From positions 1 through 46,111 of the forward strand of contig VFKA01000018.1 in assembly GCA_009885795.1 (NCBI GenBank): DNA of 46,111 bases, given 5' to 3'. The DNA comes from Rhodospirillales bacterium. Its GTDB lineage: Bacteria; Pseudomonadota; Alphaproteobacteria; Dongiales; Dongiaceae. Shown here piece after piece: positions 13,593-42,634 of this stretch (position 1 is the stretch's first letter; every line of letters starts with the position of its first letter). The notes beneath the pieces were generated by a model. That model was given only the letters and a program-made list of their open reading frames with translations. It did no database searches and was not told where the DNA came from. Both the position numbers and the translations under genes were made by a program.

Positions 13593-15721
13593 GCGCGGTC
13601 ATCGACATCGATATCGGCGGCACCTTCACGGATTGCTACATCACCCGCGAGCGCGAGCAGGTCTGGTGCAAGTCGCGAACCACGGCCTACGACCTGTCGG
13701 TGTGCATGATCCAGGCGATCGAGGAAGGCGCGCGGCGCCTCAATCTCTCGATCGAGGACCTCCTGGGCGAGACCGAAATGATCCGGTACTCGACCACGCT
13801 CGCCATGAACAAGCTCATCCAGCGCAACGGCCCGAAGCTGGGGCTGATCGCCACGCGAGGATTCGAGGACACGATCTTCATCGGCCGCTGCAGCCAGTGG
13901 GCCGACGGCATTCCGTTCAAGCACTCCCGCAACATCGCGCGCGTGCAACGGCCCGTGCCGCTCATCGACCGGACCATGGTCGTGGGCGCGCATGAGCGCA
14001 TCGATTCCAACGGCAAGGTGATCTTCCCCCTGAACGAGGACGTGTTCCTCGAGCAGTTGCGGGGCCTCGTGGACAGGGGCGCGCGCAGCTTCGTCGTGTC
14101 TCTGCTGTGGTCGTTCCGCAATCCGGAGCACGAGCAGCGCATCAAGGAGTTGATCACCGAGGAATACAACGACTCTCATCTCGGCAACATGCCGGTCTTC
14201 CTGTCCTCGGAGATCGCGCCGCGCATGTATGAATATCCGCGCACGATGATGACCATATTGAGCGCCTATCTGCACCAATCCATGTACCAGGAGCTGATCG
14301 GGATCACCGAGGAGCTGCGCGACCGCGAGTACCAGAAGCCGCTGATGATGGTGCACAACACCGGCGGCATGGCCTCGGTGCTGAAGACCTCGGCGGTCAA
14401 CACCTACAATGGCGGCCCGGTCGCCGGCGTGATGGGCAGCTACTACCTGGCGCCGCATTACGGCTTCCGCAACGTCATCAGCGCCGACATGGGCGGCACC
14501 AGCTTCGATATCGGCCTGGTGGCCGAGGGCAGCACCCGCTTCTACCAGTTCCAGCCGGTGATCGACCGCTGGGTGGTCGATGCGACCATGATCGACGTGC
14601 GCTCGATCGGCGCCGGCGGCGGATCGATCATCCGAGTCAATCCGTTGCTCGGCAACCAGGTCGTGGTCGGCCCGGAGTCCGTCGGCTCGCATCCGGGGCC
14701 GGCCTGCTACAATCAGGGCGGCCTGGACCCGGCGGTGACCGACGCCGACGTGGTTCTCGGCTACATCAACCCGGAGAATTTCCACGGCGGCAAGCTGGCG
14801 CTGTCCAAGGAGCTCGCGCTGAAGGCCATCGAGGAAAAGGTGTCGAAACCGCTTGGCATCAGCCCGGAGGAAGGCGCGCTCATCGCCAAGCGCGTGGTCG
14901 ATGCCAAGATGGGGAACGAGATCTACAAGGAAACGGTGTTGAAGGGCTTCGACCCGCGCGATTTCATCCTGTTCGCGATCGGCGGCGCCGGGCCCACCCA
15001 CGCGACCGGCTTCGCCGAATTCGCGTTGCTCGACACCATCGTCGTGTTCCGTTTCGCCTCGACGTTCTGCGCCTACGGATCCTCGACCATGGACCTCGTG
15101 CATCTCTACGAGCAGTCGCTGCATTTGCACCTGCTGGATGTCAGGGGCGCCTGGCTCAAGGAGTTCGACGCCTTCAACGCGATCGTCGACGGATTGACCG
15201 CCAAGGCGCTGCAGGATTTCCGCGGCGAAGGCATGAAGGACGCGCCGATCAAGTGGCAACTCGAACTCGACATGAAATTCGGCGGCCAGCTCAATACCAA
15301 GCGCGCGGTGGTGCCGGTGCTCAAGCTCCGCTCGGAGGCGGACGTCAAGGCGGTCTACAAGGCCTTCGAAAAGGAATACAGCGAGACCTACAGCACGATG
15401 GGCCTGACGCCGGAAGCGGGCGTGGAGATCGAGAATTTCGTGCTCCGCGCCACCGTTCACCACGACAAGCCCGAGCTGCGCAAGCTGCCCGTGGTCGGAC
15501 CCGATCCGTCGGGCGCCTTGTCGGGCAAGCGGCCGGCCTACTGGCACAAGATCGGCTGGAAGGAAACGCCGATCTATGCCCTGCCCAAGCTGCAGGTCGG
15601 CAACCGGTTCAACGGGCCGGCCATCGTCGAGGCCGAGGACACGACAATCGTGGTCGAGCCGGGCTGGTCGTTCGAAGTGGACCAGTTCGGCAACAACCTG
15701 ATGAAGAAGCTCGGGGCATAG
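13589..15721 (+). CDS. second HyuA-family ATP-dependent subunit (alpha'-like)
   Basis: 710-residue protein with the same fold as the gene at 11182 but clearly diverged. Nucleotide-binding motifs are DIDIGGTFTDCY (residues 6-17) and ADMGGTSFDIGL (299-310). The end GPAIVEAEDTTIVVEPGWSFEVD is the normal HyuA C-terminus. Two different HyuA-like subunits plus one HyuB-like and one gamma subunit is the composition reported for the acetophenone carboxylase core complex, where two ATP are used per carboxylation. Overlap of 4 bp with the gamma gene and a 10-bp gap to the HyuB gene fit one mRNA. Confidence 0.9.
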   Translation: MSAVIDIDIGGTFTDCYITREREQVWCKSRTTAYDLSVCMIQAIEEGARRLNLSIEDLLGETEMIRYSTTLAMNKLIQRNGPKLGLIATRGFEDTIFIGRCSQWADGIPFKHSRNIARVQRPVPLIDRTMVVGAHERIDSNGKVIFPLNEDVFLEQLRGLVDRGARSFVVSLLWSFRNPEHEQRIKELITEEYNDSHLGNMPVFLSSEIAPRMYEYPRTMMTILSAYLHQSMYQELIGITEELRDREYQKPLMMVHNTGGMASVLKTSAVNTYNGGPVAGVMGSYYLAPHYGFRNVISADMGGTSFDIGLVAEGSTRFYQFQPVIDRWVVDATMIDVRSIGAGGGSIIRVNPLLGNQVVVGPESVGSHPGPACYNQGGLDPAVTDADVVLGYINPENFHGGKLALSKELALKAIEEKVSKPLGISPEEGALIAKRVVDAKMGNEIYKETVLKGFDPRDFILFAIGGAGPTHATGFAEFALLDTIVVFRFASTFCAYGSSTMDLVHLYEQSLHLHLLDVRGAWLKEFDAFNAIVDGLTAKALQDFRGEGMKDAPIKWQLELDMKFGGQLNTKRAVVPVLKLRSEADVKAVYKAFEKEYSETYSTMGLTPEAGVEIENFVLRATVHHDKPELRKLPVVGPDPSGALSGKRPAYWHKIGWKETPIYALPKLQVGNRFNGPAIVEAEDTTIVVEPGWSFEVDQFGNNLMKKLGA

Positions 15722-15731
15722 GAGAAACACC

Positions 15732-17786
15732 ATGTTCGATGTCGATCTGATCGAAAAAGGCCTGAAGCCGATGCCGGCAACGCCGGAAATGATCGCGGCG
15801 ATGGAAGAGCTCGGCCCCGGCGATTACGAAATCTATTCGGAGAAGCTCAACCTCATCGTCGAGGAGGGCAAGAAGGTGATGACCATGATGGGCATCTCCA
15901 GCATGCTCCATTCCGGCGACACCATGGCGGCGGTCTATACCGCCGAAGGGGATCTGGTCACCACCGCCTGCGGCACCTACTTGCACTGCGTGACCGGACA
16001 GATTCCGGTGAAGTTCATCCTCAAATATTTCCAGGATGATCCTTCCGTCGGCCTGCGAGAAGGCGACGTGTTCTATTGCAACGAGGCGATCTATGGCGGG
16101 ATCCACAATCCCGACCAGTTCGCGATCATGCCGATCTTTCACGAAGGCGAGATCTGCGGCTGGACCGTCGTCGGCGCCCACCAATCCGAGACCGGCGGCA
16201 AGGAACCCGGCGGCGAAGTGACGACCGCGGTCACGCGCCACGACGAAGGCATGAAACTGACCCCGATCAAGATCGGCGAGAACTACCTGATCAAGGCCGA
16301 TCTCCTCAAGATGATGGAAAACTTCATCTCGCGCGCGCCGCGCATGCAGGTGACGGACGTGAAGGCGCGGGTTGCCGCCTGCGATCGCATTCGCATCCGC
16401 ATGCAGCAGCTGCTGAAATCCAAGGGGCGGCGGTTCGTGACCGGCCTCTTCCGCAAGATGATCAAGGAGTCCGAGGACGGCGTGCGCAAGCGCATCAAGG
16501 ATTGGAATGACGGGATCTATCGCCACGTCGTCTTCATCGACACCACCGGCGCCGAGGCGAGCCTGTTGCGCGTGCCGCTCACCCTTCACAAGAAGGGCGA
16601 CCGCCTGACCATCGACTTCACCGGGACCTCGCCGGAGCATAATGGCAGCTTCCAGGCCCTGGCGCCCTGCGTGCGCGCCCATTGCGCGGTCAACCTCTAC
16701 CAGTCGCCATTCCACGACTTTCCCATTTCCGCCGGCACGATGGAGCCGATCGACTTCATCATACCGCACGGCACCATTCTCGACCCCGATCCGGAGGCGG
16801 CGATTTCCTGCTCGCCGACCACGGCGTCGGCGGCGTTTCCGCTGCTGGCGGTGACGCTCTCCAAGATGATGTACGCCAGCCCGCAGCGCGATCAGGTCTG
16901 CGGCTTCTGTTCGTCGAATTCCTCGGCGCCGATGATCACCTGTGTCAATCAGCACGGCGCCAAGGTGGTCGATTTCCTGGGGTTTCCCTTGAATGCCTGG
17001 GGCCTGGCCGCGCGTCACGACTGCGATGGGGTCGATGTCTTCGGCTTTCCGCACGGGCCCTGGGGCAAGGGGCCGGACGTGGAGGACACCGAGCGCGCCT
17101 TCCCGCTGATCCACCTCTATCAGCGGGGCCAGGCCGACAGCGGCGGCTACGGCAAGTATCGGGGCGGCACCGGCATCGCGCTCTCCTACATCGTGCACAA
17201 CGCGCCCTATGCCATCTTCACGGCGTCGTGCAAGGAATCGAAATTCCCGACCACGACGGGCCTCTTCGGCGGCTATTCGGAAACCGTGGTGCCGGGAATC
17301 CGCGTCACCGGGATCGACGCCATCGAGCAGATGAAGGCCGGCAAGGTCGAGCTTCCGAACAGCGATTACGAACTGCTGACGAAGAACCCGTTCAAGGGCA
17401 AGATCGTGCGCGAGCACCAGACGAGGCCGCCGCTCATCGTCAAGAAGGGCGAGATGATCTGCTCCAGCACCCAAGGAGCCGGCGGTTATGGCGATTGCCT
17501 GGAGCGGCCGGCGGAATCGGTCATGCAGGACATCCGCCAGGAGGCGCTTACCCATTGGACGGCGCGCAATGTCTATAAGGTGGCTTACGACCCGAAGACG
17601 CTGAAGGTCGACGAAGCAGCGACCGAGAAACTTCGGGCGACCGAGCGCCGCAATCGCCTGAAGCGCGGCAGGCCCTACCACAAATTCGTCAAGGAATGGT
17701 CGAAGCTGCGGCCGCACCCGCAAGCGCTCAAATTCTACGGCACCTGGCCGGACGCGAAGAAGAACCGCGAGGTCATCCGAATTTGA
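15732..17786 (+). CDS. HyuB-family subunit (acetophenone-carboxylase beta-like)
   Basis: 684-residue hydantoinase B/acetone carboxylase alpha-type protein. Recognisable blocks are DPSVGLREGDVFYCNEAIYG with GIHNPDQFAIMPIFHEGEI, DFTGTSPEHNGSFQALAPCV, GGYGKYRGGTGIAL, and the C-terminal STQGAGGYGDCLERP. A ribosome site (GGAGAAA) precedes the ATG. It would carry out the second half-reaction on the activated substrate. The family's usual NDPY/GGTHLPD block reads NEAIYGGIHNPD here, a variation seen in carboxylase-type rather than hydantoinase-type members as far as I recall. Confidence 0.9.
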   Translation: MFDVDLIEKGLKPMPATPEMIAAMEELGPGDYEIYSEKLNLIVEEGKKVMTMMGISSMLHSGDTMAAVYTAEGDLVTTACGTYLHCVTGQIPVKFILKYFQDDPSVGLREGDVFYCNEAIYGGIHNPDQFAIMPIFHEGEICGWTVVGAHQSETGGKEPGGEVTTAVTRHDEGMKLTPIKIGENYLIKADLLKMMENFISRAPRMQVTDVKARVAACDRIRIRMQQLLKSKGRRFVTGLFRKMIKESEDGVRKRIKDWNDGIYRHVVFIDTTGAEASLLRVPLTLHKKGDRLTIDFTGTSPEHNGSFQALAPCVRAHCAVNLYQSPFHDFPISAGTMEPIDFIIPHGTILDPDPEAAISCSPTTASAAFPLLAVTLSKMMYASPQRDQVCGFCSSNSSAPMITCVNQHGAKVVDFLGFPLNAWGLAARHDCDGVDVFGFPHGPWGKGPDVEDTERAFPLIHLYQRGQADSGGYGKYRGGTGIALSYIVHNAPYAIFTASCKESKFPTTTGLFGGYSETVVPGIRVTGIDAIEQMKAGKVELPNSDYELLTKNPFKGKIVREHQTRPPLIVKKGEMICSSTQGAGGYGDCLERPAESVMQDIRQEALTHWTARNVYKVAYDPKTLKVDEAATEKLRATERRNRLKRGRPYHKFVKEWSKLRPHPQALKFYGTWPDAKKNREVIRI

Positions 17787-23142: not shown

Positions 23143-23183
23143 CTTCGAATCATACAAAGCGAGCCGATCCTATGGAGGACACG

Positions 23184-24143
23184 ATGCAGCAGCCCGCCCG
23201 CAAACTGGGCCACCGCCACACCATTCACGATCGCGACCAGCACCTCAACTGGGACAATGCGCGTAAACCCGCGCTGACCGCCGCGCCGGGGGACACCATC
23301 GAGTTCGAGAACATCGACGCGACTTGCGGCCAGATCACCGCCCAGTCGACGGCCGACACGATCCGCACGCTGGATTTCGCCCGCGTCAACCCGATCGCCG
23401 GTCCGGTCTATATCGATGGCGCCGAACCCGGCGACGCCCTCAAAGTGACCCTGGTCGACTTCACGCCCACCGGCTGGGCGTGGACCGCCATCGTGCCGGG
23501 CTTCGGGCTGCTGGCCGAGGATTTCCCCGAGCCGGCGATCAACATCTGGAGCTACGCCAAGGACTTCAAAACGCCGGCGATGTATGGCCCCGGCGCGAAG
23601 GTTCCGTTGAAACCGTTCTGCGGCACCACCGGCGTGGCCCACGCCGAAGCCGGCCAGTTCAGCACGATCCCGCCCTATGCCACGGGCGGCAACATGGACA
23701 TTCGCGATCTCACGATCGGCGTCGATCTTTACTTGCCGGTGAGGGTGAAGGGTGCCCTCTTCTCGATCGGCGATACCCATGCCGCCCAGGGCGACGGCGA
23801 GGTCTGCGGAACGGCGATCGAGTCGCCGATGTCGGTCGTGGCCAAATTCGACCTGGTCAAGAACGCCAATCTGAAGTTCCCGTACTTCGTCACGCCGGGA
23901 CCGGTGAGCCGGCACCTGGACGGCGCCGGCTATTTCGTGACCACCGGAATCAACCCCGACCTCATGGCCGCCAGCAAGGATGCCGTGCGCGGCATGATCG
24001 ACCTGCTCGGCCGGGAGAGAAAGATGAGCCCGGAGAACGCCTACATGCTGTGCAGCGTGTGCGCGGACATGCGCATCAGCGAGATCGTGGATCAGCCCAA
24101 TTGGGTCGTGTCCTGTTACATGCCGCGTCTCGTGTTCAACTGA
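23184..24143 (+). CDS. acetamidase/formamidase family protein, second copy
   Basis: 319-residue amidase of the FmdA/AmdA family. Start at 23184 has a GGAGG site 5 bp upstream; a frame open from 23139 also includes ATG 23172, which overlaps that ribosome site. Family blocks are APGDTIEFENIDATCGQ, TGGNMDIRDL, and GDTHAAQGDGEVCGTAIESP, equivalent to the block in the first amidase. It is only moderately similar to the copy at 6408, so the two probably differ in substrate or are old duplicates. It begins the operon that continues with a complete ABC importer, which suggests the amide is imported and then hydrolysed. Confidence 0.93.
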   Translation: MQQPARKLGHRHTIHDRDQHLNWDNARKPALTAAPGDTIEFENIDATCGQITAQSTADTIRTLDFARVNPIAGPVYIDGAEPGDALKVTLVDFTPTGWAWTAIVPGFGLLAEDFPEPAINIWSYAKDFKTPAMYGPGAKVPLKPFCGTTGVAHAEAGQFSTIPPYATGGNMDIRDLTIGVDLYLPVRVKGALFSIGDTHAAQGDGEVCGTAIESPMSVVAKFDLVKNANLKFPYFVTPGPVSRHLDGAGYFVTTGINPDLMAASKDAVRGMIDLLGRERKMSPENAYMLCSVCADMRISEIVDQPNWVVSCYMPRLVFN

Positions 24144-24171: not shown

Positions 24172-25614
24172 ATGAGAACGAACATCTGGGGCCGGGCCGG
24201 GCGAAGCCGGATCGGCCGGTTCGCGGCGGCTGGCGCGCTCGCGGCCGCCGCGGCCCTGTGGACGATTCCGGCTTCGGCGTGGTCGCTCGAGGAAGCCGCC
24301 AAGCCCTATGCCGGGGCGACGATCAAATGCGTCGGCGACGGTTATTCGCCATTCCTCGCCTACCAGAAGCTGGCGGCGGAGAAGTTCACGCCAATGACGG
24401 GCATCACGGTCGAATGGGAGGTGGGCGACGTCGGCGCCGCGCTTCGCCAGAAGATGACCGCCGACGCCATCAACAAGACCGGCGTCTATGACTGCGTCGA
24501 GCTTCCCTCGCTCGACGTCGGGCTGTGGATCGCCCAGGGTTTCGCCAAGCCCATATACGAATTGTTGGCGGACGAAAAACTGCATGACCCGACCTTCGAT
24601 CCGTGGACGGCCTATGTGCCGGAGACGTTGGCGTTCTCGTCGACCGAGAACGGCAAGATTTACGGCCTGCCCTACCACTTCATTCCGCGCTTCATGGTGG
24701 TGCGGACCGATATCGCCAGCTGCCCGACCGAGCAGGCGAATTTCAAGGCCAAGTTCGGCTACGACCTGCCGCTGAAGCCGGCGACCTGGGAGCAGTTCAA
24801 GGACGTCGCCCAATTCTTCACCCGCAAGGCCGGCGAGAATCTGTGCGATCAACCGGTGGCCGAGGATTTCTATGGCACGGCGGTGTCGATGAAGCGCCAC
24901 TGGGCGACGCAATACGACTTCGAACTCTTCCTGAATGGCTTCGGCGGTTACTTCTTCGAGGGCGACGGGCCGCTCGATACGGCCGAGGGGTTCAAGAGCG
25001 GCGGCGACATTGCCTTCGACAGCCCGACGGCGATCAAGGCGATGGAGTACTGGCTGTCGCTGCTGCCCTTCGTGCCGCCCGGATATCTCGAATACACCTG
25101 GGACAACACCTATGCGGATATGTGCCAGGGTCGAGTTTATACCTATGCGACCTGGGGCGACACGACGCCGTTTCTCGAGACGGCGAGCGACGATGGCTGC
25201 CCCAAGATCGCGGGTAAGTTGACCTACTATCCCGTGCCGGGCACGAACATGACGGGCGGCGAGGGGCAGGCTTGGATGATCCCGTCATCGTCGAAGAACC
25301 AGGAGGCCACCTTCCTGTTCCTGCAATGGCTGGCCTCGTTCGAGGTGCAGAAGGAATGCCAGAAGATCGGCTGCACGACGCCGCGCAAGGACGTCTGGTT
25401 CGAGAAGGATTTCGACGGCATCGGCGCCGTCGAGATCACACGCTGGCTGATCGAGAACGACAAGGTGATCGCGCGGGGCCATCCGCCGGCATTGTCCGAG
25501 ATCTCGACCATCCTTATCGACGCCATTCACTCGGCCGGCATGGAAGAGAAATCGGCCGAGGAAGCGCTCAAGGAAGCCGCGGAAAAGAGCCGCGCGGCCT
25601 TGTCGCAACAGTAA
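24172..25614 (+). CDS. extracellular solute-binding protein, family 1 (second importer)
   Basis: 480-residue periplasmic binding protein. A clear signal peptide (RFAAAGALAAAAALWTIP, then ASA|WSLEEAAKPYAG) follows an Arg-rich start; an AAGGGGAG ribosome site precedes the ATG. The mature protein starts with the same AWS-x2-EAA-x-PY-x-G pattern as the binding protein at 1929. Several Cys residues (CVGDG, DCVEL, SCPTE, DMCQG, GCPK, ECQKIGCTT) could form disulfides, unusual for this family. It lies 28 bp after the amidase stop, and a strong hairpin separates it from the permease genes. Confidence 0.93.
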   Translation: MRTNIWGRAGRSRIGRFAAAGALAAAAALWTIPASAWSLEEAAKPYAGATIKCVGDGYSPFLAYQKLAAEKFTPMTGITVEWEVGDVGAALRQKMTADAINKTGVYDCVELPSLDVGLWIAQGFAKPIYELLADEKLHDPTFDPWTAYVPETLAFSSTENGKIYGLPYHFIPRFMVVRTDIASCPTEQANFKAKFGYDLPLKPATWEQFKDVAQFFTRKAGENLCDQPVAEDFYGTAVSMKRHWATQYDFELFLNGFGGYFFEGDGPLDTAEGFKSGGDIAFDSPTAIKAMEYWLSLLPFVPPGYLEYTWDNTYADMCQGRVYTYATWGDTTPFLETASDDGCPKIAGKLTYYPVPGTNMTGGEGQAWMIPSSSKNQEATFLFLQWLASFEVQKECQKIGCTTPRKDVWFEKDFDGIGAVEITRWLIENDKVIARGHPPALSEISTILIDAIHSAGMEEKSAEEALKEAAEKSRAALSQQ

Positions 25615-25681: not shown

Positions 25682-26605
25682 ATGACCAGATCCGGCGCCA
25701 TCCCGATCGATCCCAGCGTTCGCCGGTTTCTCTGGATCTGCATCCTTCCGGTCATTCTTTTTCTCGTTCTGGTGTCCCTGGCGCCGCTGGTGCTGGCCCT
25801 CATCGACAGCCTGAGGGAGATGAGCCTGGCCGCGATTTCGCGTCACGGGAAATTCGTCGGATTGCAGAACTTCATCACGGTGTTGAGCGCCGACTCCGGC
25901 CTGTTCGGCGCCTTGCTGAAGACGGCGCTCTTCGTGCTGATCGTGGTCCCCATCGAGTTCGCCCTTGGCCTTCTGATCGCCATGGCGCTCAATCGCGAGT
26001 TCCGGAGCCGCCGCCTCTGGGTCACGATTCTGCTGTTGCCGACGATGGTGGCACCCGTCGTCGTCGGCCTCATCTGGGATTTTCTCTTGATGCCGAATTA
26101 CGGGTTGTTCACCTGGGTGATGAACAATTTCGGCTGGTTCCAGGGCAGGCCCGTTTTCTCGCAACCCCTTTCCGCGTTCGCCGCCATCGCCATCATCGAC
26201 GTTTGGGAGTGGACCCCCTTCATGATGCTGTTCATGTTGGCGGGATTGCTCGGGCTGCCGAGGGAACCGATCGAGGCGGCGGAGATCGATGGCGCTTCGC
26301 CGTGGCGCGTGTTCTGGCACATCCAGCTGCCGCTGCTGCGCCCCATCATGATCGTGGCGCTGATGTTCCGCGCCATCGATGCCTCCAAGGTGTTCGAGAC
26401 CATCTTCGTCCTCACCGGCGGAGGACCTGGAACGACCACGGAATTGATCAGCATCTATGCGTACCGGACGGCGTTCCAGAACTGGGAATTGGGCGACGCC
26501 GCCGCGATCTGCCTGCTGATCGGATTCTTTTCTCTGCTTGCCGCCTCCATCTTCTTCAAGCTGATATCGCGCCAGCCCGAGAAAGAGGCGATGGCGGATG
26601 TCTAG
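25682..26605 (+). CDS. CUT1-type ABC importer permease, MalF/UgpA-like (second importer)
   Basis: 307-residue inner-membrane permease with six predicted membrane segments; the first is LPVILFLVLVSLAPLVLALI. The EAA loop is IEAAEIDGASPWRVFWHIQL, followed by the family motif FVLTGGGPGTTTELISIYAY. It overlaps the next permease gene by 8 bp, so the two are translationally coupled. It is similar in layout to the permease at 921. No strong ribosome site is seen before the ATG at 25682. Confidence 0.93.
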   Translation: MTRSGAIPIDPSVRRFLWICILPVILFLVLVSLAPLVLALIDSLREMSLAAISRHGKFVGLQNFITVLSADSGLFGALLKTALFVLIVVPIEFALGLLIAMALNREFRSRRLWVTILLLPTMVAPVVVGLIWDFLLMPNYGLFTWVMNNFGWFQGRPVFSQPLSAFAAIAIIDVWEWTPFMMLFMLAGLLGLPREPIEAAEIDGASPWRVFWHIQLPLLRPIMIVALMFRAIDASKVFETIFVLTGGGPGTTTELISIYAYRTAFQNWELGDAAAICLLIGFFSLLAASIFFKLISRQPEKEAMADV

Positions 26606-27425
26606 GGGATCGCGGCGCCCGTCTCTCCTCTTCTGGTTGGTGCTGCCGTTCATGGCCTTCGTGACGCTGCTGCCCTATGCCTGGACCTTCGCGACCAGCT
26701 TCAAGCGGCGCTCCGATATCCTCTCGACGCCACCGACCTGGATCAAGGATCCGAGCTGGTTCAATTACGAGAGCATGCTGTTCACGCGGGGCTTCGATCT
26801 TTACTTGCTGAACAGCGTCATCATCGGCGTATCAAGCACCCTTCTTGCCCTCACGGTCGGCACGCTCGCCGGCTATGCCTTCTCCCGCTACAAGGTGCCC
26901 GCCGGCAACCATCTCTTCTTCTATATCCTGGCGACGCGATTGGGGCCGCCCATCGCCTATGCCTTGCCCATGTATTTCCTGTTCTCGGAACTTGGGCTGC
27001 TCAACACGCATCTCGGCGTCAGTATCGCCCATGCCGCCTTCAATCTCGTGCTCGTGGTGTGGATGATGAAGACATTTTTCGACGAGATTCCGGTCGAGTT
27101 GGAGGAGGCGGCAAGCATTGACGGCTGCACGGCCGCCCAGGCGTTTTGGCGGATTTCCCTGCCGCTCGCCCTGCCGGGGTTGGTGACGGTGGCGATGTTC
27201 GTCTTCATCTTCTCGTGGAACGAAATGCTGTTTGCCTTGATGTTGTCGGCGGGCGATTCCAACACGCTGCCGGTCATGATTCCCTCGCTCATACAGCACA
27301 CGGGCACGCTGCGCGGCGAGGTCGCCGCGGCCGCGATCGTCCAGACGATTCCGGTGATCGTCTTTACTTTTGTGGCCCAGCGTCATCTTTTGCGTGGCCT
27401 CACTTTTGGCGCGGTCAAGGGCTAG
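26598..27425 (+). CDS. CUT1-type ABC importer permease, MalG-like (second importer)
   Basis: 275-residue inner-membrane permease. First membrane segment is LLFWLVLPFMAFVTLLPYAW; the EAA loop is LEEAASIDGCTAAQAFWRIS followed by LPLALPG. Length matches MalG-type permeases. It partners the permease encoded just upstream. The next gene, a very small membrane protein, begins 6 bp after its stop, which places the small proteins inside the transporter operon. Confidence 0.93.
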   Translation: MSRGSRRPSLLFWLVLPFMAFVTLLPYAWTFATSFKRRSDILSTPPTWIKDPSWFNYESMLFTRGFDLYLLNSVIIGVSSTLLALTVGTLAGYAFSRYKVPAGNHLFFYILATRLGPPIAYALPMYFLFSELGLLNTHLGVSIAHAAFNLVLVVWMMKTFFDEIPVELEEAASIDGCTAAQAFWRISLPLALPGLVTVAMFVFIFSWNEMLFALMLSAGDSNTLPVMIPSLIQHTGTLRGEVAAAAIVQTIPVIVFTFVAQRHLLRGLTFGAVKG

Positions 27426-27431: not shown

Positions 27432-27644
27432 ATGCGTCATCTCGAAATCGGATCGTTGCGGCCAAGCCCCGGCGACCTCGACGCCAGTCTTTGGGCGATC
27501 GCCTGCTGCTGGCTCGCCGTTTGGGGCAACTATCTCCTGCTGTCGCTCGATCTGACCGCCGCCTACATCGTGCCGTTCGATCTCTTCCTGGTTCCGCTGC
27601 TGGTCACCGGCGTCTTCTGGGCGCTCGGCCGGCTGCGTGGGTGA
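27432..27644 (+). CDS. small two-helix membrane protein within the ABC importer operon (70 aa)
   Basis: 70-residue protein with a soluble N-terminus (MRHLEIGSLRPSPGDLDASL) and two hydrophobic segments, about residues 20-40 (WAIACCWLAVWGNYLLLSLD) and 46-66 (IVPFDLFLVPLLVTGVFWAL). It sits between the MalG-like permease and another small membrane protein. No family is recognised; a small membrane protein (DUF2160) is known in glycerol-type GlpSTPQV importer operons, but I cannot show homology. It could be an accessory of the permease complex. Codon use fits its neighbours. Confidence 0.7.
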   Translation: MRHLEIGSLRPSPGDLDASLWAIACCWLAVWGNYLLLSLDLTAAYIVPFDLFLVPLLVTGVFWALGRLRG

Positions 27645-27651
27645 ACCGACG

Positions 27652-27822
27652 ATGCAGACGACACCCCTTCTCCATCTCGTTCTGCTGCTGCTGGCGCTGC
27701 CGCTGCAGCTCGGCCTGGCCGTACTCAACGGCCGGACGCGGTGGCTGACGCCGGGCGAGCTGCGTTTCTGGGGGGTGGCGATTTTCTTGATCGTGGAAAT
27801 CATCTACCTGGCGGGGAGCTGA
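27652..27822 (+). CDS. second small two-helix membrane protein in the same operon (56 aa)
   Basis: 56-residue protein with two hydrophobic segments, about 5-25 (PLLHLVLLLLALPLQLGLAV) and 37-54 (LRFWGVAIFLIVEIIYLAG), joined by a short basic loop NGRTRWLTPGE. It starts 7 bp after the first small gene, and its stop overlaps the ATPase start (TGATG). The tight coupling on both sides argues that it is translated. No known family recognised. Confidence 0.68.
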   Translation: MQTTPLLHLVLLLLALPLQLGLAVLNGRTRWLTPGELRFWGVAIFLIVEIIYLAGS

Positions 27823-28919
27823 TGGCGCGCATCGACATCGAGAACATTCGCAAGACTTTTGGCGGCGTCGTCGCGCTCCACGACGTTTCGCTGGCGATCC
27901 CCGATGGCGCCTTCGTCATTCTCGTCGGGCCGTCCGGATGCGGGAAGACGACGTTGTTGCGGCTGTTGGCCGGGCTCGAGGCGGCGAGCGCGGGTACGAT
28001 CGCGATCGACGGTCGGGACGTGACCGCGCTGCCGGCCCGCGAGCGCGACGTGGCCATGGTGTTCCAGAACTACGCGCTCTATCCGCACATGTCGGTGCGG
28101 CGCAACATGAGCTTCGCGCTGGAACTCAAGAAGATTCCGCGCGCCGAAATCGAAAGGCGCGTCGACGCGACCGCGGACATCCTGGGCATCGGGGCGCTGT
28201 TGGACCGCCGCCCCCGGCAGCTATCGGGCGGCCAGCGCCAGCGGGTGGCGCTCGGCCGCGCCATCGTTCGCGAGCCGGCGGTGTTCCTGTTCGACGAGCC
28301 GCTGTCGAATCTCGACGCCAAACTGCGGACCTCGATGCGCAGCGAATTGATCAAGCTGCACAAACGGCTGAACGCCACCATCGTCTACGTGACGCACGAT
28401 CAGGTCGAGGCGATGACGATGGGCGAGATCGTCGTCGTCATGAAAGACGGCGTGCTGCTGCAATCCGGCGCCCCGCTCGACATCTACCGCGACCCGGTCA
28501 ATCTGTTCGTCGCCGAGTTCATCGGCAGCCCGGCGATGAACTTCCTCAAAGGGAATTTCGATGCCGGGCGCGGCGAGGCCGTCGTCGCCGAGGGACGAGG
28601 CCGCCTTCGGCTCGACCCCGCTCTCGCCGGCAGCCTTGCCGAGGGCCGGCGCGTGGAGCTGATCTTCGGCGTCCGGCCCGAGCATCTCCTCGCGGCGCCG
28701 CCGCCAAGCGGCGCGTCGGCTATCGACGGCCTGGTGGAGGTCGTCGAACCGCTCGGCGCCGAAACCGTGGTCGAGATGAGCCTCGGCACTCAATCCCTGA
28801 CCGCGCGGCTCAAAGGCGACCTCTTGCCCGCCACCGGCTCGGTCCTGACGCTGCACGTCGAACCGAAATCCGTCTTCGTCTTCGATCCGGCGGATGGCGC
28901 GCGATTGCGCGCGGTGTGA
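27822..28919 (+). CDS. ABC importer ATPase, MalK/UgpC type (second importer)
   Basis: 365-residue ATP-binding subunit with all motifs intact: Walker A GPSGCGKTT, Q-loop VFQNYALYPHM, signature LSGGQRQRVALGRAI, Walker B VFLFDEP, and H-loop VTHDQVEAM. A C-terminal regulatory domain contains FGVRPEHLL. The start at 27822 overlaps the preceding stop codon; a longer frame from 27741 would lie within the small membrane gene. Unlike the first importer, only one ATPase is encoded, so a homodimer is expected. It is the last gene of the amidase-importer operon. Confidence 0.94.
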   Translation: MARIDIENIRKTFGGVVALHDVSLAIPDGAFVILVGPSGCGKTTLLRLLAGLEAASAGTIAIDGRDVTALPARERDVAMVFQNYALYPHMSVRRNMSFALELKKIPRAEIERRVDATADILGIGALLDRRPRQLSGGQRQRVALGRAIVREPAVFLFDEPLSNLDAKLRTSMRSELIKLHKRLNATIVYVTHDQVEAMTMGEIVVVMKDGVLLQSGAPLDIYRDPVNLFVAEFIGSPAMNFLKGNFDAGRGEAVVAEGRGRLRLDPALAGSLAEGRRVELIFGVRPEHLLAAPPPSGASAIDGLVEVVEPLGAETVVEMSLGTQSLTARLKGDLLPATGSVLTLHVEPKSVFVFDPADGARLRAV

Positions 28920-29871: not shown

Positions 29872-30270
29872 ATGGTGAAGGCGAGGAGCGAAGTCCAGCC
29901 CAGGCCGGTGCGTTGGATCGGCGGCAGCAAGGAAGACCTGAGTGGCTTTCCGGAGGAAGTGCGGCGGCGAGTCGGCGGCGCGCTGTGGGAGTCGCAGATC
30001 GGCCGCAAGGCGCCCTACGCGAAGCCGCTCAAAGGGTTCGGCGACGCCGGGGTGTTGGAGATCGCGGATGATTTCGACGGCGGCACCTTCCGCGCCGTAT
30101 ACACCGTGCGCTTTGCCAAGGCTATTTATGTGTTGCACGCCTTCCAGAAGAAATCGAAGCGCGGGGTTGCCACGCCCAAGACCGAGTTGGATTTGATCGG
30201 CCAGCGGCTCAAGCGAGCAAGAGAGGATTACGAGCAATGGTCAAGAAGCGAGAAGCCGACATCCCGGTGA
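29872..30270 (+). CDS. higB: HigB/Gp49-family toxin (RelE superfamily)
   Basis: 132-residue putative ribosome-dependent mRNA interferase. Family pattern: VRWIGGSKEDLSGFPEEVRR, then LWESQIGRKAPYAKPLKGFG, EIADDFDGGTFRAVYTVRF, and the terminal strand IYVLHAFQKKSKRGVATPKT. This matches the phage-derived Gp49-like HigB group, usually encoded upstream of an XRE antitoxin, as here. Its last 34 bp overlap the antitoxin gene. No strong ribosome site is seen, so expression may be low. Confidence 0.88.
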   Translation: MVKARSEVQPRPVRWIGGSKEDLSGFPEEVRRRVGGALWESQIGRKAPYAKPLKGFGDAGVLEIADDFDGGTFRAVYTVRFAKAIYVLHAFQKKSKRGVATPKTELDLIGQRLKRAREDYEQWSRSEKPTSR

Positions 30271-30587
30271 CAGCGAGCAGCGGCAACGTGTTCGCCGATA
30301 TGGGATTTGCGGAACCCGAGGAAGAGCTGACCAAGGCGCAGCTTGCGAGCCATATCCGGCGGGTGATCAAGCGCCGGCGTTTGACCCAGGTCGCGGCGGC
30401 GGCGCTCATGGGCATCGATCAACCGAAAGTGTCGGCGCTCCTTAACGGGCGCCTCGCAAACTTCTCCAGTGAGCGCCTGATGCATCTGCTGACTGGACTC
30501 GGCCAGGATGTGGACATCACTGTCAGGGCCAAGCCGCGCGACCGGGCGCACGGCCGCGTCCGCGTCATCGGCGAAGCGCATGCGTGA
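30237..30587 (+). CDS. higA: XRE-family antitoxin (HigA-like)
   Basis: 116-residue helix-turn-helix protein with GAGAGGA site upstream. The XRE domain spans about residues 33-85: LASHIRRVIKRRRLTQVAAA, ALMGIDQPKVSALLNGRLAN, SSERLMHLLTGLGQDVDI. This is the compact antitoxin type that pairs with Gp49-like HigB. It neutralises the toxin and probably represses the operon through the inverted repeat at 29832. It converges on chrA, whose 3' end is 20 bp away. Confidence 0.9.
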   Translation: MVKKREADIPVTASSGNVFADMGFAEPEEELTKAQLASHIRRVIKRRRLTQVAAAALMGIDQPKVSALLNGRLANFSSERLMHLLTGLGQDVDITVRAKPRDRAHGRVRVIGEAHA

Positions 30588-34974: not shown

Positions 34975-35637
34975 TCACCGAACCTCGACCAGATAGTTGC
35001 CGTGTGGATCCACAATGGCGCCCTGGCCCCGGTGCAGGAAGATGGTCGTGGTCGGCACTTCGATGATGGCCGGCCCCTCGATAGCGGCGCCTTGCCCTAG
35101 CCGCGAGCCGTCATAGACCGGTACTTCGATCTGGCCCTCGGCCCGGCCGGCGTAGACGAGGCGGCGCGATTTCGGCCGGGCCGGGCCCCGCTGCGCCGGC
35201 AGCGGCTCGCCCCGCCGCGCGCCGCCGCCGGTATCGCCGATCGCGCGCACCTTCCAGGTTTGGCGGATCGCCGCGATGGCCCGCCGCTCGCCGTAATCCA
35301 TCCATGCCTCGATGAAGGTCTTGATGGTTTCGACGCCATAGCGTTCGACCAATTCCTTGAGCCGGCGCTCGCCCGTGCGGCAGGCGCCGACCTGGGCGCG
35401 GTAATCGCCGTACCAGATGTTGCTGACGCGGATCTTCTGATGCCCCATGCGGATGAGGTCCGCCTTGTCCTTGCCATTCTCCTGGATGCGAATACAGGGA
35501 AAATGCAGTCCCTCGCCGTAGATCGTGGCGGCATAAGGCAGATAGGTCGTCGGCTCCGGCGCTCCCAAGTCGACGTGATGCGAGCGCGCCAGCGTCCAGA
35601 ACAACGGTTCGCCCTCGTGGTAAACCGGCACGCACAA
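34975..35637 (-). pseudogene. remnant fusing a HyuB fragment to a HyuA C-terminus
   Basis: 220-codon frame in two parts. Residues about 1-125 (VPVYHEGEPLFWTLARSHHV, YGEGLHFPCIRIQENG, YGDYRAQVGACRTGERRLKE) match the middle of hydantoinase B proteins. Residues about 157-220 (RRLVYAGRAEGQIEVPVYDG, GPAIIEVPTTTIFLHRGQGA, DPHGNYLVEV) match the extreme C-terminus of hydantoinase A. The first quarter of HyuB, its C-terminal half and most of HyuA are missing. A deletion across a former hyuB-hyuA junction explains this. An in-frame stop lies just upstream. Most likely a decaying relic of a hydantoin-type locus next to the dihydropyrimidinase gene. Confidence 0.8.
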
Positions 35638-35682: not shown

Positions 35683-37296
<1,614 letters not shown>

Positions 37297-37352
37297 GGCG
37301 GGGTAACACCAACAGCCGTAAGAGCTGACTCATGCGACGCGCCGACGCGCTT

Positions 37353-37456
37353 CCCCTCACCCCGACCCTCTCCCACAAGGGGAGAGGGGGAATACCCTCG
37401 CCCGCTTCGCGGCAGAGGGAGGGCCCCATCGCCTCGGGCGATGGGAGGGTGAGGGG
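37353..37456. repeat. cloverleaf-like palindromic repeat after dihydropyrimidinase gene
   Basis: Outer arms CCCCTCACCC (37353-37362) and GGGTGAGGGG (37447-37456) enclose three hairpins: CCCTCTCCC/GGGAGAGGG (37366-37374, 37380-37388), CCGC/GCGG around 37402-37412, and CCCATCGCC/GGCGATGGG (37425-37433, 37437-37445). It lies in the 333-bp gap between two convergent genes; a repeat of this design suggests a small interspersed element. Confidence 0.75.
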
Positions 37457-37527
37457 GACACTGGCGGGTTACGACTAGGGTCTTTTGGTATTACACCAGC
37501 GGACCTCGGTCCTAGCCCGTGAGGTTC

Positions 37528-37571
37528 CCCTCTCCCGCCCCTTCGTCTTCAAGGGTGATGGCGGGAGAGGG
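37528..37571. terminator. 12-bp-stem hairpin between convergent genes
   Basis: CCCTCTCCCGCC (37528-37539) and GGCGGGAGAGGG (37560-37571) are perfect arms with a 20-nt loop. It lies 58 bp past the stop of the minus-strand binding-protein gene. It may act as a bidirectional terminator or be part of the same repeat family as 37353-37456, with which it shares the CCCTCTCCC arm. No T-run. Confidence 0.5.
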
Positions 37572-37629
37572 TGCCTCTTTGCTATCGCAAGCCTTCGAGT
37601 TCGAGAAATTCCTTCGCCGACTCCAAGGA

Positions 37630-38631
37630 TCACATTCCCATCGCCTTGTTCCAGATGTCATGGGTCCAGGCGCCTTCGGGCGCCTTGGAGATCACGGGGT
37701 CCGAGCCGCCCGCGAGCAGGATTTTCACGGTGCGCTCATAAGCCGCGGGATCGAGATAGCCCGTGCCTTTCTCGGCCTTGCCGACGAGCTTGGCGATCTC
37801 GCCCATCATGCGCTTCTGGTGCATTTCGGTCTGGGCGCCGGTCTCGTCGTTTTCCAGCACGATCATGGCGGCGGCGTCCGGGTTGGCGACGGCCCAGTCC
37901 CATCCCTTCATCGAGGCCCGCACGAAGCGCACGAGCTTGTCGACCATGCCCGGGTCTTGCAGGCTGCTCTCGAGCGTGTAGATGCCGTCTTCCAACGTCG
38001 CCACGCCCTGGTCTTCGTAGGGGAAGACGACCAGTTCTTCGGCCGGCAGTCCGGCATCGATGACTTGCCAATATTCGTTGTAGGTCATGGTAGAGATGCA
38101 ATCGGCCTGCTTCTGCAAGATGGGATCGACGTTGAAACCCTGCTTCAACACGGTGACGCCATCGCCGCCCGATGTCCCGAAGCCGAGCTGGCTCATCCAC
38201 GACAGGAACGGATACTCGTTGCCGGCGAACCAGACGCCCAGCGTCTTGCCCTTGAAGTCCTCGGGCCTAGTGATGCCGGTGTCCTTGCGGCAGGTCAGCA
38301 TCATGCCCGAGCGCTGAAACGGTTGGGCGATGTTGACGAGCGGCACGCCCTTCTCGCGCGTCGCCAGCGCCGAAGGCATCCAATCCAGCACCACGTCGGC
38401 GCCGCCGCCGGCGATGACCTGGCTTGGGTTGATGTCGGGTCCGCCCGCCTTGATCGTCACATCGAGGCCGGCCTCGTCATAGAATCCCTTGTCCTTGGCG
38501 ACGTAGTAGCCGGCGAACTGCGCCTGGGTCACCCATTTCAGTTGCAGGGTCAGGGAATCCGCAGCCCAGCTTTGCGCGCCCAAACCGGCCAGCGCCACGG
38601 CCATGGTCATTGCAGCAAGAGTCTTCTTCAT
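37630..38631 (-). CDS. NMT1/THI5-like ABC importer binding protein (pyrimidine-type)
   Basis: 333-residue periplasmic binding protein. The signal peptide (MKKTLAAMTMAVALAGLGAQ, SWA|ADSLTLQLKW) is clear, and GGGAG before the ATG is a ribosome site. KWVTQAQFAGYYVAKDKGFY and the GGPDINPSQVIAGGGADVVL block are typical for the ThiY/NMT1 group that binds pyrimidine-like and related ring compounds. It is the last gene of the minus-strand operon. In the context of preTA and dihydropyrimidinase it likely binds uracil, thymine or a hydantoin (inference). Confidence 0.92.
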   Translation of the reverse strand: MKKTLAAMTMAVALAGLGAQSWAADSLTLQLKWVTQAQFAGYYVAKDKGFYDEAGLDVTIKAGGPDINPSQVIAGGGADVVLDWMPSALATREKGVPLVNIAQPFQRSGMMLTCRKDTGITRPEDFKGKTLGVWFAGNEYPFLSWMSQLGFGTSGGDGVTVLKQGFNVDPILQKQADCISTMTYNEYWQVIDAGLPAEELVVFPYEDQGVATLEDGIYTLESSLQDPGMVDKLVRFVRASMKGWDWAVANPDAAAMIVLENDETGAQTEMHQKRMMGEIAKLVGKAEKGTGYLDPAAYERTVKILLAGGSDPVISKAPEGAWTHDIWNKAMGM

Positions 38632-38656
38632 GAAAAATCTCCCATCGGATGTTGAG

Positions 38657-39517
38657 TCAGCGGTTGCGCGCCTCCGCGCGATAGGACGGGTGCCAGAAGG
38701 TCAGCGCCCGCTCCAGCAGGGCCAGGAGCCCATAGAACATCGAACCGGCGACGGCGGCAACGGCAATCGTCGCCCAGACGATGTCGACGTTCATCTTGTA
38801 GACTTCGGTCGAGATGCGAAACCCCATGCCGGAGATCGGCGAGCCGAACATCTCGGCGACGATGGCGCCGATCAGCGCCAGGGTCGAATTGATCTTGAGC
38901 GCATTGAAGACGAACGTCAATGCCGCCGGCAGCCGCAGCTTGAAGAAGGTCTGCCAATAGCCGGCGCCGTAGGAATACATGAGGTCGCGCTGCATGCGGT
39001 CGGCGGCGGCAAGGCCGGCGATGGTGTTGATCAGCATCGGAAAGAACGTCATGACCACGATCACCGCCGCCTTCGATTCCCATCCGAACCCAAACCACAT
39101 CACCATGATCGGGGCGATGCCCACGACCGGCACGGCGCCCGCCATGTTGCCGAGCGGCAGCAGGCCGCGCTGCAGGAACGCCACGCGATCGGTGAGGAGT
39201 GCCACGAGAAAGCCGAGGCCGCAGCCCATGGCGAAGCCGGCCAGCACGGATTTCAGGAAGGTCTGCTGAAAGTCCGCCCAGAGCATGCCGGCCTGGGCGA
39301 CAAGCTGATGGCCGATCTGGCTTGGGGCGGGCAACAGTATCCGGGGCACGTCGAATCCGACGACGACGACCTCCCAAATCCACAGCAGCCACAGGCCGAA
39401 CAGGATCGGGATCGCCAAGGCGACAAGGCGCCCGGCCGGTTCGCGGCGCGATAGCAGGTTGATCGCGGCCAGCGGAGCAAGAGTGATCGGGACGACGGCC
39501 AGCCACGACCAGGTCAT
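38657..39517 (-). CDS. ABC importer permease (SsuC/ThiX-like), second subunit
   Basis: 286-residue inner-membrane permease. Its ATG at 39517 overlaps the stop of the upstream permease gene (ATGA). The N-terminus MTWSWLAVVPITLAPLAAIN begins a membrane segment. The C-terminal half has the usual BPD_transp_1 pattern: PVVGIAPIMVMWFGFGWESK, GAGYWQTFFKLRLPAALTFV and NSTLALIGAIVAEMFG. The frame stays open further upstream through the first permease gene, but that is antisense-like, out-of-frame noise and not a fusion. Confidence 0.92.
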   Translation of the reverse strand: MTWSWLAVVPITLAPLAAINLLSRREPAGRLVALAIPILFGLWLLWIWEVVVVGFDVPRILLPAPSQIGHQLVAQAGMLWADFQQTFLKSVLAGFAMGCGLGFLVALLTDRVAFLQRGLLPLGNMAGAVPVVGIAPIMVMWFGFGWESKAAVIVVMTFFPMLINTIAGLAAADRMQRDLMYSYGAGYWQTFFKLRLPAALTFVFNALKINSTLALIGAIVAEMFGSPISGMGFRISTEVYKMNVDIVWATIAVAAVAGSMFYGLLALLERALTFWHPSYRAEARNR

Positions 39518-40398
39518 GGCCGCGTTCCCATGCGCCGAAGAGCGATCCGTTCGATACCGCCGACGCCATAGACCATGGCCATGCCGAGCAGTGCCGCCAT
39601 CAGCAACGCCGACCAGATTTGAATGGTTTGGCCGTAGTAGGAGCCGCTGAGCAAGCGCGCGCCCAGTCCGGCCGTGGCGCCGGACGGCAGCTCGCCGACA
39701 ATGGCGCCAATCAAGCTGATGGCGACGGAGACCTTCAGGCTCGCGAACAGGAACGGCATCGAGGAGGGCCAGCGCAGCTTGCGGAACACCTGGCTCGCGC
39801 TCGCGTTGTAGGTGCGCATCAGATCGAGCTGCAGCGGATCGGGCGAGCGCAGGCCCTTGACCATGCCGATGGTCACCGGAAAGAACGACAGATAGCCCGA
39901 GATGATCGCCTTCGGGATGACGCCGGTGACGCCGATATTGCCGAGCACGATGATGATCATCGGCCCGATGGCAAGGATCGGGATGGTCTGGGAGGCGATG
40001 ATCCAGGGCATCAGGCTGCGGTCGAGCGTGCGGACATGCACGATGCCGACGGCAAGCCCGATGCCGAGCAGCCCGCCGAGGATGAATCCAAGCCCGGTCG
40101 CCGAAGCGGTGATCCATGCATGGTACAGCAGGTTGCGCTTGCTGGCGATCTTGGTGCCGGCGGTCGTCTTCCAGAACTCCGCCAGCACTTGATCGGGCGT
40201 CGGCAGCACCGGGCGCTCCATCGACCAGGTGCCCGCGATCAGATCGGCCGTCGTCCAGGCCTGGGGGCCGCGATCGAGTTGCTCGCGCACCCGCGGCGCA
40301 TTCAGGAAGATCGCGCCGAGATACCAAAGCACGCCGACGAACAGCAAGACGGTGGCGAGCGGCAGCGCCCGTCCGGCAACCAGGCTCTTAGTCGTCAT
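39514..40398 (-). CDS. ABC importer permease (SsuC/ThiX-like), first subunit
   Basis: 294-residue inner-membrane permease beginning MTTKSLVAGRALPLATVLLF. Conserved parts include FILGGLLGIGLAVGIVHVRT, SQTIPILAIGPMIIIVLGNI, and the coupling loop NASASQVFRKLRWPSSMPFL. A large periplasmic loop (residues 35-85, RVREQLDRGPQAWTTADLIA) follows the first membrane helix. It overlaps the ATPase gene by 11 bp upstream and the second permease by 4 bp downstream. Two non-identical permeases point to a heterodimeric pore. Confidence 0.92.
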   Translation of the reverse strand: MTTKSLVAGRALPLATVLLFVGVLWYLGAIFLNAPRVREQLDRGPQAWTTADLIAGTWSMERPVLPTPDQVLAEFWKTTAGTKIASKRNLLYHAWITASATGLGFILGGLLGIGLAVGIVHVRTLDRSLMPWIIASQTIPILAIGPMIIIVLGNIGVTGVIPKAIISGYLSFFPVTIGMVKGLRSPDPLQLDLMRTYNASASQVFRKLRWPSSMPFLFASLKVSVAISLIGAIVGELPSGATAGLGARLLSGSYYGQTIQIWSALLMAALLGMAMVYGVGGIERIALRRMGTRP

Positions 40399-41185
40399 AA
40401 CTATGTCCCGCCCGCAGCGCGGCTCGCACCTTGTGGGCGATGTCGAGGAACCGCGGGCTCTCCCGCGCATCCAGCGTACGGCCTCGCGCAAGGTCGCTGT
40501 CGATGGTCTCGACGATGCGGCCCGGCCGCGGACTCATGACGACGATGCGCGAGGATAGAAAGACCGCCTCGGCGATCGAATGGGTGACAAAGACGACCGT
40601 CTTGCCGGTGGCCTCGTGGAGCCGCAGGAGCTGCTCGTTCAGGCGATCGCGGGTGATCTCGTCAAGCGCGCCGAACGGCTCGTCCATCAGCAGCAGATCC
40701 GGCTCGAAGCCGAGCGCGCGGGCGATGGAGACCCGCTGCTGCATGCCGCCCGAAAGCTGCCATGGAAATTTTCTCTCGAAGCCCTCGAGGCCGACCATCG
40801 CCAGATACTTCGCCGCCCGCGCCGCCCGCAGGCCCGGATCGAAGCCGATGATTTCCAGCGGCAGCGTCACATTGCGCGCGACGTTGCGCCACGGATACAA
40901 CGCCGGCGCCTGGAAGACATAGCCATAGGCGCGCGCCAGCCTGGCCTCGTTCGGGGACACGCCGTTGACGACAATGGTTCCGCCGGTCGGCTGCTCCAAA
41001 TCGGCAATGACGCGCAGCAACGTCGTCTTGCCGCAGCCGGACGGCCCGATGAAGGAAACGAACTCGCCGCGCCCGATGGCGAGGTCGATGTCCGCCAGCG
41101 CCGCCACCGGCCCATCCCCCGTCTGGAATACCAGCGACAGATCGCGGATTTCGACGACTGTCGCGGCGGTCGATCCCTCGGTCAC
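40388..41185 (-). CDS. ABC importer ATPase (SsuB/TauB/ThiZ-like)
   Basis: 265-residue ATP-binding subunit. Walker A GPSGCGKTT, Q-loop VFQAPALYPWRNV, signature LSGGMQQRVSIARAL, Walker B LLLMDEPFGALDE and H-loop VTHSIAEAVFL are all intact. The frame remains open upstream to 41338, but that extension translates the REP repeat and is not expected to be expressed. GTG at 41185 (TEGSTAATVVEIRDLSLV) is the most likely start, although its ribosome site is weak, so the N-terminus is uncertain by some ten residues. Confidence 0.92.
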   Translation of the reverse strand: MTEGSTAATVVEIRDLSLVFQTGDGPVAALADIDLAIGRGEFVSFIGPSGCGKTTLLRVIADLEQPTGGTIVVNGVSPNEARLARAYGYVFQAPALYPWRNVARNVTLPLEIIGFDPGLRAARAAKYLAMVGLEGFERKFPWQLSGGMQQRVSIARALGFEPDLLLMDEPFGALDEITRDRLNEQLLRLHEATGKTVVFVTHSIAEAVFLSSRIVVMSPRPGRIVETIDSDLARGRTLDARESPRFLDIAHKVRAALRAGHSYDD

Positions 41186-41266
41186 GGCTTGAACTTCGGG
41201 CACGTCGGCGGCCAGAAGCCATCGACCGATGCCCTCCACGGGGCGCCTGGACCACTCGCCTCCCTT

Positions 41267-41341
41267 GTCATGCCCGGACTTGATCCGGGCATCCAGGCTT
41301 CTTGCGGAATTCCGGATGGCCGGGTCAAGCCCGGCCATGAC
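41267..41341. repeat. REP-like palindromic repeat inside the pyrimidine operon
   Basis: Two hairpins side by side: TGCCCGG/CCGGGCA around 41271-41291 and GGCCGGG/CCCGGCC around 41318-41336, flanked by GTCATG and CATGAC at the ends. This is a frequent alphaproteobacterial intergenic element. It lies between the amidohydrolase and ATPase genes. Confidence 0.8.
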
Positions 41342-41369
41342 ATCGGTGTGTTCGAAGTCTCAACAAACA

Positions 41370-42605
41370 CTAGGCATTCGCCCGCTCGATCATGGCGCGC
41401 AAGAGCACGTCGCAGCCGGCCGCCAGGTCGCTTTGCGCGGCGTCCTCGATCTCGTTGTGGCTGATGCCGTCCTTGCACGGCACGAACACCATGGCGGTCG
41501 GCGTCACCCGCGACATGTACACGGAATCGTGGCCGGCGCCGCTGATGATGCGCCGATTGGTAAAGCCGAGTTCGCCCGCGGCCTGCTGCACCGCGTTGAC
41601 GCAAGCCGTGTCGAACTTGACCGGCGGCGAATACCAGATTTCCTTGAAGTCCAACTCGAGCTTGCGACGTTGGCAGATCGTCTCGCATTCGGCCTTCAGC
41701 TCATCGCCCATGCGCTTCAGGACGCCGGAGTCGGGATGGCGGAAATCGACGGTGAAGAACACCTTGCCCGGGATCACGTTGCGCGAGTTGGGGGTAACCT
41801 GGAGCATGCCGACCGTGGCGCAGGCGTAGGGCGGGTTGGCCAGGCCGATGCGGTTGACGGCCAGCACCATGTCGCCGACGCCGACCAGCGCGTCCTTGCG
41901 CCGCGGCATCGGCGTCGGCCCGGCATGGGCATCCTGGCCGGTCACGGTGACCTCGTACCAACGAATGCCCTGCACGCCTTCGACCACGCCGATGGTCTTG
42001 TTCTCGGCCTCCAGAATCGGCCCCTGCTCGATATGCGCCTCGAAGAAGGCGGCGACCTCGCGTCCGCCGCAGGCGCGATCGCCGGCATAGCCGATGCGCT
42101 GCAACTCCTCGCCGATGGTTTTGCCGTCGACGTCCTGGCGCGACAATCCATAGTCCAGATCGAACGCGCCGGCATAGACGCCAGACGCGATCATCGCCGG
42201 CGCGAAGCGCGAACCCTCTTCATTGGTCCACACCACCACCTCGATCGGCCGGTTGGTCTCGTAGTTGAAGTCGTTGAGGGTGCGGATCACTTCGAGGCCG
42301 GACATGACGCCGTAATTGCCGTCGAACTTGCCGCCGCTGGGCTGGGTGTCGATGTGGCTGCCGGTCATGACGGGGGCCAGCTTGTCGTCCTTGCCGGGGC
42401 GGCGCGCGAAGATGTTGCCCATCTTGTCGACGCCGACCGAGCAGCCGGCCTCCTTGCACCATCGCACCACGAGGTCGCGCGCCTGCTTGTCGAGATCGGT
42501 CAGCGCCAGCCGGCGCACGCCGCCCTTCTCGGTGGCGCCGATCTTGGCCAGGTCCATCAGGCTTTGCCAAAGCCGATCGCTGTTGATGCGGATATTGGTG
42601 GTCAT
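41370..42605 (-). CDS. Zn-dependent N-carbamoyl amidohydrolase (beta-ureidopropionase/HyuC type)
   Basis: 411-residue M20-type hydrolase that releases CO2 and ammonia from N-carbamoyl amino acids, here most likely N-carbamoyl-beta-alanine, the last step of reductive pyrimidine breakdown. Metal ligands fall in His84 and Asp95 (GSHIDTQPSGGKFDG), the EE of WTNEEGSRFA, His in FEAHIEQGP, and the C-terminal SHNE. Dimerisation-domain segment GQDAHAGPTPMPRRKDAL is typical of the carbamoylase/allantoate amidohydrolase group. An AGGGGG site precedes the ATG. It lies 29 bp after preA. Confidence 0.93.
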   Translation of the reverse strand: MTTNIRINSDRLWQSLMDLAKIGATEKGGVRRLALTDLDKQARDLVVRWCKEAGCSVGVDKMGNIFARRPGKDDKLAPVMTGSHIDTQPSGGKFDGNYGVMSGLEVIRTLNDFNYETNRPIEVVVWTNEEGSRFAPAMIASGVYAGAFDLDYGLSRQDVDGKTIGEELQRIGYAGDRACGGREVAAFFEAHIEQGPILEAENKTIGVVEGVQGIRWYEVTVTGQDAHAGPTPMPRRKDALVGVGDMVLAVNRIGLANPPYACATVGMLQVTPNSRNVIPGKVFFTVDFRHPDSGVLKRMGDELKAECETICQRRKLELDFKEIWYSPPVKFDTACVNAVQQAAGELGFTNRRIISGAGHDSVYMSRVTPTAMVFVPCKDGISHNEIEDAAQSDLAAGCDVLLRAMIERANA

Positions 42606-42634
42606 GGGGCCCCCTGCCGCCGATTTGGCGTTGT

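Follow-up and report, generated by a model that had tools for sequence, protein, structure and literature searches.

Two unnamed, conserved families of small membrane proteins mark one clade of CUT1-type importers

The importer operon and its two small genes

An importer operon lies on the forward (+) strand of the window, the whole stretch of 46,111 nucleotides that was analysed, which is exactly one contig. The operon is headed by the gene for a formamidase/acetamidase-like (FmdA-like) enzyme (23175..24143; PF03069). This is followed by genes for a solute-binding protein (SBP; 24172..25614; SBP_bac_1), a UgpA/MalF-like permease (permF; 25682..26605; BPD_transp_1), a MalG-like permease (permG; 26598..27425; BPD_transp_1), two small membrane proteins of 70 and 56 amino acids, here called s70 (27432..27644) and s56 (27652..27822), and, in last place, a MalK/UgpC-like ATPase (27822..28919). 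The set fits a CUT1-type ABC importer: an SBP_bac_1 protein, two BPD_transp_1 permeases and a MalK-type ATPase with OB/TOBE domains. The ATPase matches the UgpC subfamily model NF008653 (449 bits versus a cut-off of 432), and the best NCBIfam match of permF is the UgpA model, with a score under that model's cut-off. The usual description of type I sugar-type importers lists five components, namely one binding protein, a pair of permeases and two copies of the ATPase.

The open reading frames of s70 and s56 start at ATG codons (27432 and 27652); an alternative in-frame GTG start of s56, upstream at 27637, would give a protein of 61 amino acids. The earlier note on this DNA had described two frames of this length, with two hydrophobic segments each, closely packed into the operon. 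The frames are confirmed, both products are predicted to be two-helix hairpins, and the spacing is as had been read: 6 bp from the permG stop at 27425 to s70, 7 bp from s70 to s56, and an overlap of the s56 TGA with the ATPase ATG, as TGATG. AlphaFold places the helices of s70 at residues 13-38 and 43-69 (pLDDT 86) and those of s56 at residues 5-29 and 34-55 (pLDDT 91).

Directly downstream of the ATPase gene lies a gene for a TIR-domain protein (PF13676; 28969-29730, +), and after it a pair of the Gp49-like toxin and HTH antitoxin type (29872-30587). At 8-5780 (-) lies a second importer from the same superfamily; it has two ATPase genes (a glp-like set) and adjoins another FmdA-like gene (6366-7343), and its binding protein is 31% identical to the SBP of the s70/s56 importer. 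The absence of comparable small genes from this other importer had also been claimed. Judged from the window alone the claim is weak, because the MalG-like gene concerned (8-721) is truncated where the contig stops; genome-wide searches, which gave only one s56 and one s70, bear it out.

Conservation, selection and restriction to one importer clade

In 385 genomes of the class, orthologous operons were sought with the SBP as query, so that the search did not depend on the small frames. Matches at E<1e-100 are confined to the genome of the window (G000) and three others (G238, G275 and G302), whose SBP orthologues are 40-46% identical to it. All three carry s70-like and s56-like frames immediately upstream of the ATPase gene, in a triad s70-s56-ATPase. 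The same four of the 385 genomes give the strong matches to an s56 profile; the remaining seven, all at E above 0.001, are weak and resemble noise.

A profile of the s56 loop, a short motif, was also scanned over a collection of ~85,000 species. It retrieved 15 loci beyond the window, all in Alpha- and Gammaproteobacterial metagenome assemblies and all with s70, s56 and the ATPase gene contiguous; this list is biased toward intact triads because it was selected by the short s56 motif. Three of the 15 repeat loci already found (L022 is G302, L024 is G275 and L030 is G238), and one assembly (p16x34bins.43) holds two separate s70-s56-ATPase importers, L019 and L025. With the window, the s70 family (A4) and the s56 family (A3) thus have 16 members each.

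Close pairs give dN/dS values of 0.06-0.38 for s56 and 0.12-0.25 for s70, and third codon positions vary most. The notion that s70 and s56 are chance, unexpressed open frames in GC-rich DNA, to which the base composition of the region and a 323-codon antisense frame also present there lend some colour, is refuted by this codon-level conservation over divergent genomes, and its probability is practically nil. The earlier note had proposed looking for the small frames in orthologous operons and at the ratio of non-synonymous to synonymous change: the frames are kept both in the three genomes found with the SBP and in the 15 loci of the scan, and the ratios, well below 1 for both, are typical of coding sequence. 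s70 and s56 are real, conserved coding genes, held by natural selection in all close importer relatives found.

Their distribution follows the importer closely. Where permG is at least 59% identical the triad is present, and where it is at most 50% identical the triad is absent (the short contig of G238 does not reveal its permeases). The permG proteins of the triad loci form one clade, with support of 99/99, and every bootstrap tree (100%) recovers it. Resolution in the ATPase tree is poor, the triad label needing up to three changes on it, so that phylogeny does not establish the ATPase as an exclusive partner. In the sampled genomes the association of s70 and s56 with one importer clade is strict: the pair is always found alongside the importer and never apart from it. 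A phylum-wide sample of 398 genomes yielded no s56 relative outside this genome at E<1e-4, and a search of rhizobial and other plasmids yielded neither an s56 nor an SBP relative.

Linkage to the ATPase gene, predicted topology and proposed role

In all 16 loci the triad is contiguous, with no case in which the small pair stands apart from the ATPase gene. Around the triad, the SBP and permease genes are arranged in four ways. In the window and in L029 all genes run in the same direction, with the triad last. In 11 loci s70-s56-ATPase converges with permG on the opposite strand (and with permF where the contig reaches that far). L031 has the order SBP-s70-s56-ATPase, then permF-permG, and L030 shows the first part of it; in L018 the triad diverges from SBP-permF-permG. 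The idea that the small genes are embedded between permease and ATPase consequently needs to be narrowed: the pair directly follows a MalG-like gene in the window and L029 only, and in the other 14 triad loci, where the permeases lie elsewhere, mostly on the opposite strand, or off the contig, the constant neighbour is the ATPase gene. Since the triad stays intact through four arrangements, the ATPase gene is the one that the small genes accompany. In 15 of the 16 loci (with start codons as inferred) the s56 stop overlaps the ATPase start, as TGATG, ATGA or GTGA. The constant triad and this overlap tie the pair to the ATPase gene, more than they mark it as an insertion behind a permease, and the near-universal overlap indicates that the pair is probably translationally coupled to the ATPase.

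Charge is distributed uniformly within each family. In all 16 members of the s56 family the loop carries +3/+4 and the ends are near-neutral; in all 16 of the s70 family the termini are positive and the loop is uncharged or acidic. The positive-inside rule, which is used to orient membrane helices, then predicts opposite orientations from sequence: out-in-out for s56 (N-out/C-out) and in-out-in for s70 (N-in/C-in). The predicted cytoplasmic loop of s56 is also its most conserved part, with the motif N-x-R-x-x-x-x-T-x-G-E-x-R-F-W; it contains or adjoins eight of the 12 invariant columns of the family (N26, R28, T33, G35, E36, R38, F39 and W40). The invariant residues of s70 are W21, P48 and P55 only.

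The interpretation of the pair as uncharacterised accessory subunits, offered in the earlier note, stands as the best-supported one for these conserved coding genes, with membership in the complex suggested by linkage; gene order by itself does not prove such membership. We think it fairly probable, going by sequence, that a single clade of CUT1-type (MalFGK/UgpABCE-like) importers has s70 and s56 as dedicated accessory subunits, which always occur as a pair. They would be made together with the ATPase, their hairpins would insert with opposite topology, and the two could pack as a four-helix unit beside the permease dimer. The basic, conserved cytoplasmic loop of s56 would then face the ATPase or the permease coupling region, where it might stabilise or tune ATPase docking. 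The pair probably acts at the permease-ATPase interface; we infer both the step that leads from gene linkage to a complex and the further step to tuning or stabilisation. A more specific proposal is tentative: that this type I importer incorporates an obligate heteromeric unit of four helices, made up of s70 and s56, whose s56 loop touches the ATPase dimer or the coupling helices and adds a point of control that the MalFGK2 paradigm lacks. If true, this unit would be a two-protein CUT1 accessory module that is undescribed as far as searches show.

Modulation or stabilisation of transporters by small membrane proteins is well documented (reviewed in PMC10710835), and the size and hydrophobicity of s70 and s56 would suit regulatory micro-modulators like AcrZ, MgtS/MgtU and SgrT, binding the finished transporter conditionally to alter its specificity, block it or control its turnover by FtsH. 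The positioning of the genes for co-translation with the ATPase in 15 of 16 loci suggests coordinated production over separate induction, and the pair is never seen without its importer; modulation of this kind is accordingly unlikely. AcrZ, MgtS and SgrT do resemble the proposed s70/s56 in altering transporter activity or stability (PMC10710835), but their targets in the literature are RND, P-type, PiT and PTS transporters and not CUT1 importers, and they are unrelated in sequence to s70 and s56 as far as family searches show. Less likely again is a function in assembly or membrane targeting, in which the pair would recruit new ATPase to the membrane and then leave. The tightest linkage is to the ATPase gene, and the basic, conserved s56 loop could serve such a purpose, but evidently no such factors are needed for homologous MalK/UgpC ATPases to assemble: the importers L013 and L074-L082, when examined, had no s70 or s56.

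Likeness to known small membrane proteins and the enzymes nearby

The closest analogue of s70 and s56 is GlpU/DUF2160 (PF09928) of the glycerol importers GlpSTPQUV; from gene order, we take GlpU to be the DUF2160 protein. Like s70 and s56 of the window, GlpU is small and membrane-integral, and its gene directly follows that of the MalG-like permease of a CUT1-type importer. It is the product of a single gene and has ~97 amino acids, whereas s70 and s56 have a gene each, both linked to the ATPase gene, and no homology is detectable. The available part of one account includes a small integral membrane protein in glpSTPQUV-type importers and leaves its role undefined (PMC7912956). The genome of the window has its own glp operon (L083, G000:C22:56000-64000), in which a canonical GlpU-like DUF2160 gene lies 12 bp after the MalG-like gene. 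Short DUF2160 proteins of ~71 amino acids occur after a MalG-like gene in the same bacterial family (L012:11784-11987 and L084:7773-7985). They share with s70 and s56 their small size, two predicted hydrophobic segments and a place directly after the MalG-like gene, but they are homologous to DUF2160 (profile-profile probability 94%), not to s56 or s70. These short proteins lack the first helix of the DUF2160 family and apparently constitute a distinct sub-family; their importers adjoin a polyol-dehydrogenase-like gene.

This common site after the MalG-like gene in the GlpU and short-DUF2160 operons of the genome and family, and a resemblance by eye of T-x-G-E-x-x-F-W in s56 to T-R-G-D-R-L-F-I in DUF2160, would be explained if s56 and s70 belonged to the GlpU/DUF2160 family as split or strongly diverged members. 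The Pfam model (PF09928) matches neither s70 nor s56 nor any of the 16 members, and hhalign against the canonical profile gives probabilities of 0.5% for s56 and 2.0% for s70, as against the 94% of the short DUF2160 control. The shuffle test (p=0.07 and p=0.016) points to unrelated diagonals, with the by-eye diagonal ranking 26th. Homology with DUF2160/GlpU was rejected on these grounds (hhalign with shuffle and reversed controls, and an ungapped profile test), and such descent, already disfavoured, is very improbable. The profile tests join short and long DUF2160 and leave out s56 and s70, so that the likeness of the pair to GlpU is one of position and size, with kinship unsupported. GlpU, the short DUF2160 proteins and s70/s56 are thus small membrane proteins on importers of the same superfamily, two kinds of them related and one without detectable relation.

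A precedent for an overlooked small ABC-importer subunit, as proposed here for s70 and s56, is LucB. This small transmembrane protein turned up unexpectedly as an additional subunit of the mycobacterial Mce1 ABC importer and is a possible regulator or scaffold (PMC9882608). It differs in having four helices, in binding Mce1C and in belonging with another transporter class, and a search of PDB sequences revealed no link. That search found no convincing relative of s70 or s56; Foldseek against the PDB returned only meaningless helical-hairpin matches (E above 2), and neither the single proteins nor all 16 family members had a convincing Pfam or NCBIfam match. As a separate matter, the s56 loop was considered as a mimic of the permease EAA coupling helix and rejected (hhalign probability ~1% or less). 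Proteins of the s70/s56 kind are known, and these members and their two-gene arrangement are new as far as searched. Taken as accessory subunits, s70 and s56 would give one clade two extra, paired membrane components tied to the ATPase gene, and would show that such importers can gain parts; small genes that are easily missed in annotation thereby get a testable place in a transport machine.

The FmdA-like amidase recurs at the same place in L029 (74% identity) and was not detected at the other triad loci, which lie near Rieske oxygenases, OYE-type oxidoreductases or sarcosine-oxidase-like enzymes. Because the associated enzymes vary in this way (FmdA-like; Rieske oxygenase with OYE-type; sarcosine-oxidase-like), the pair follows the transport machinery, not one pathway. 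The neighbouring enzymes offer weak hints that amides or N-methylated amines are the substrate of the importer.

Genes for hydantoinase A/B-like proteins of normal length are present elsewhere in the window, at 11182-17786. A short frame at 34975-35637 (-) joins a Hydantoinase_B piece to a Hydant_A C-terminal piece and looks like the remnant of a rearranged hydantoinase operon. The run of genes at 35743-45320 is one of pyrimidine or hydantoin catabolism and includes a dihydropyrimidinase and, identified by eye, an NMT1-type ABC importer, an amidase and a PreA/PreT-like dihydropyrimidine dehydrogenase.
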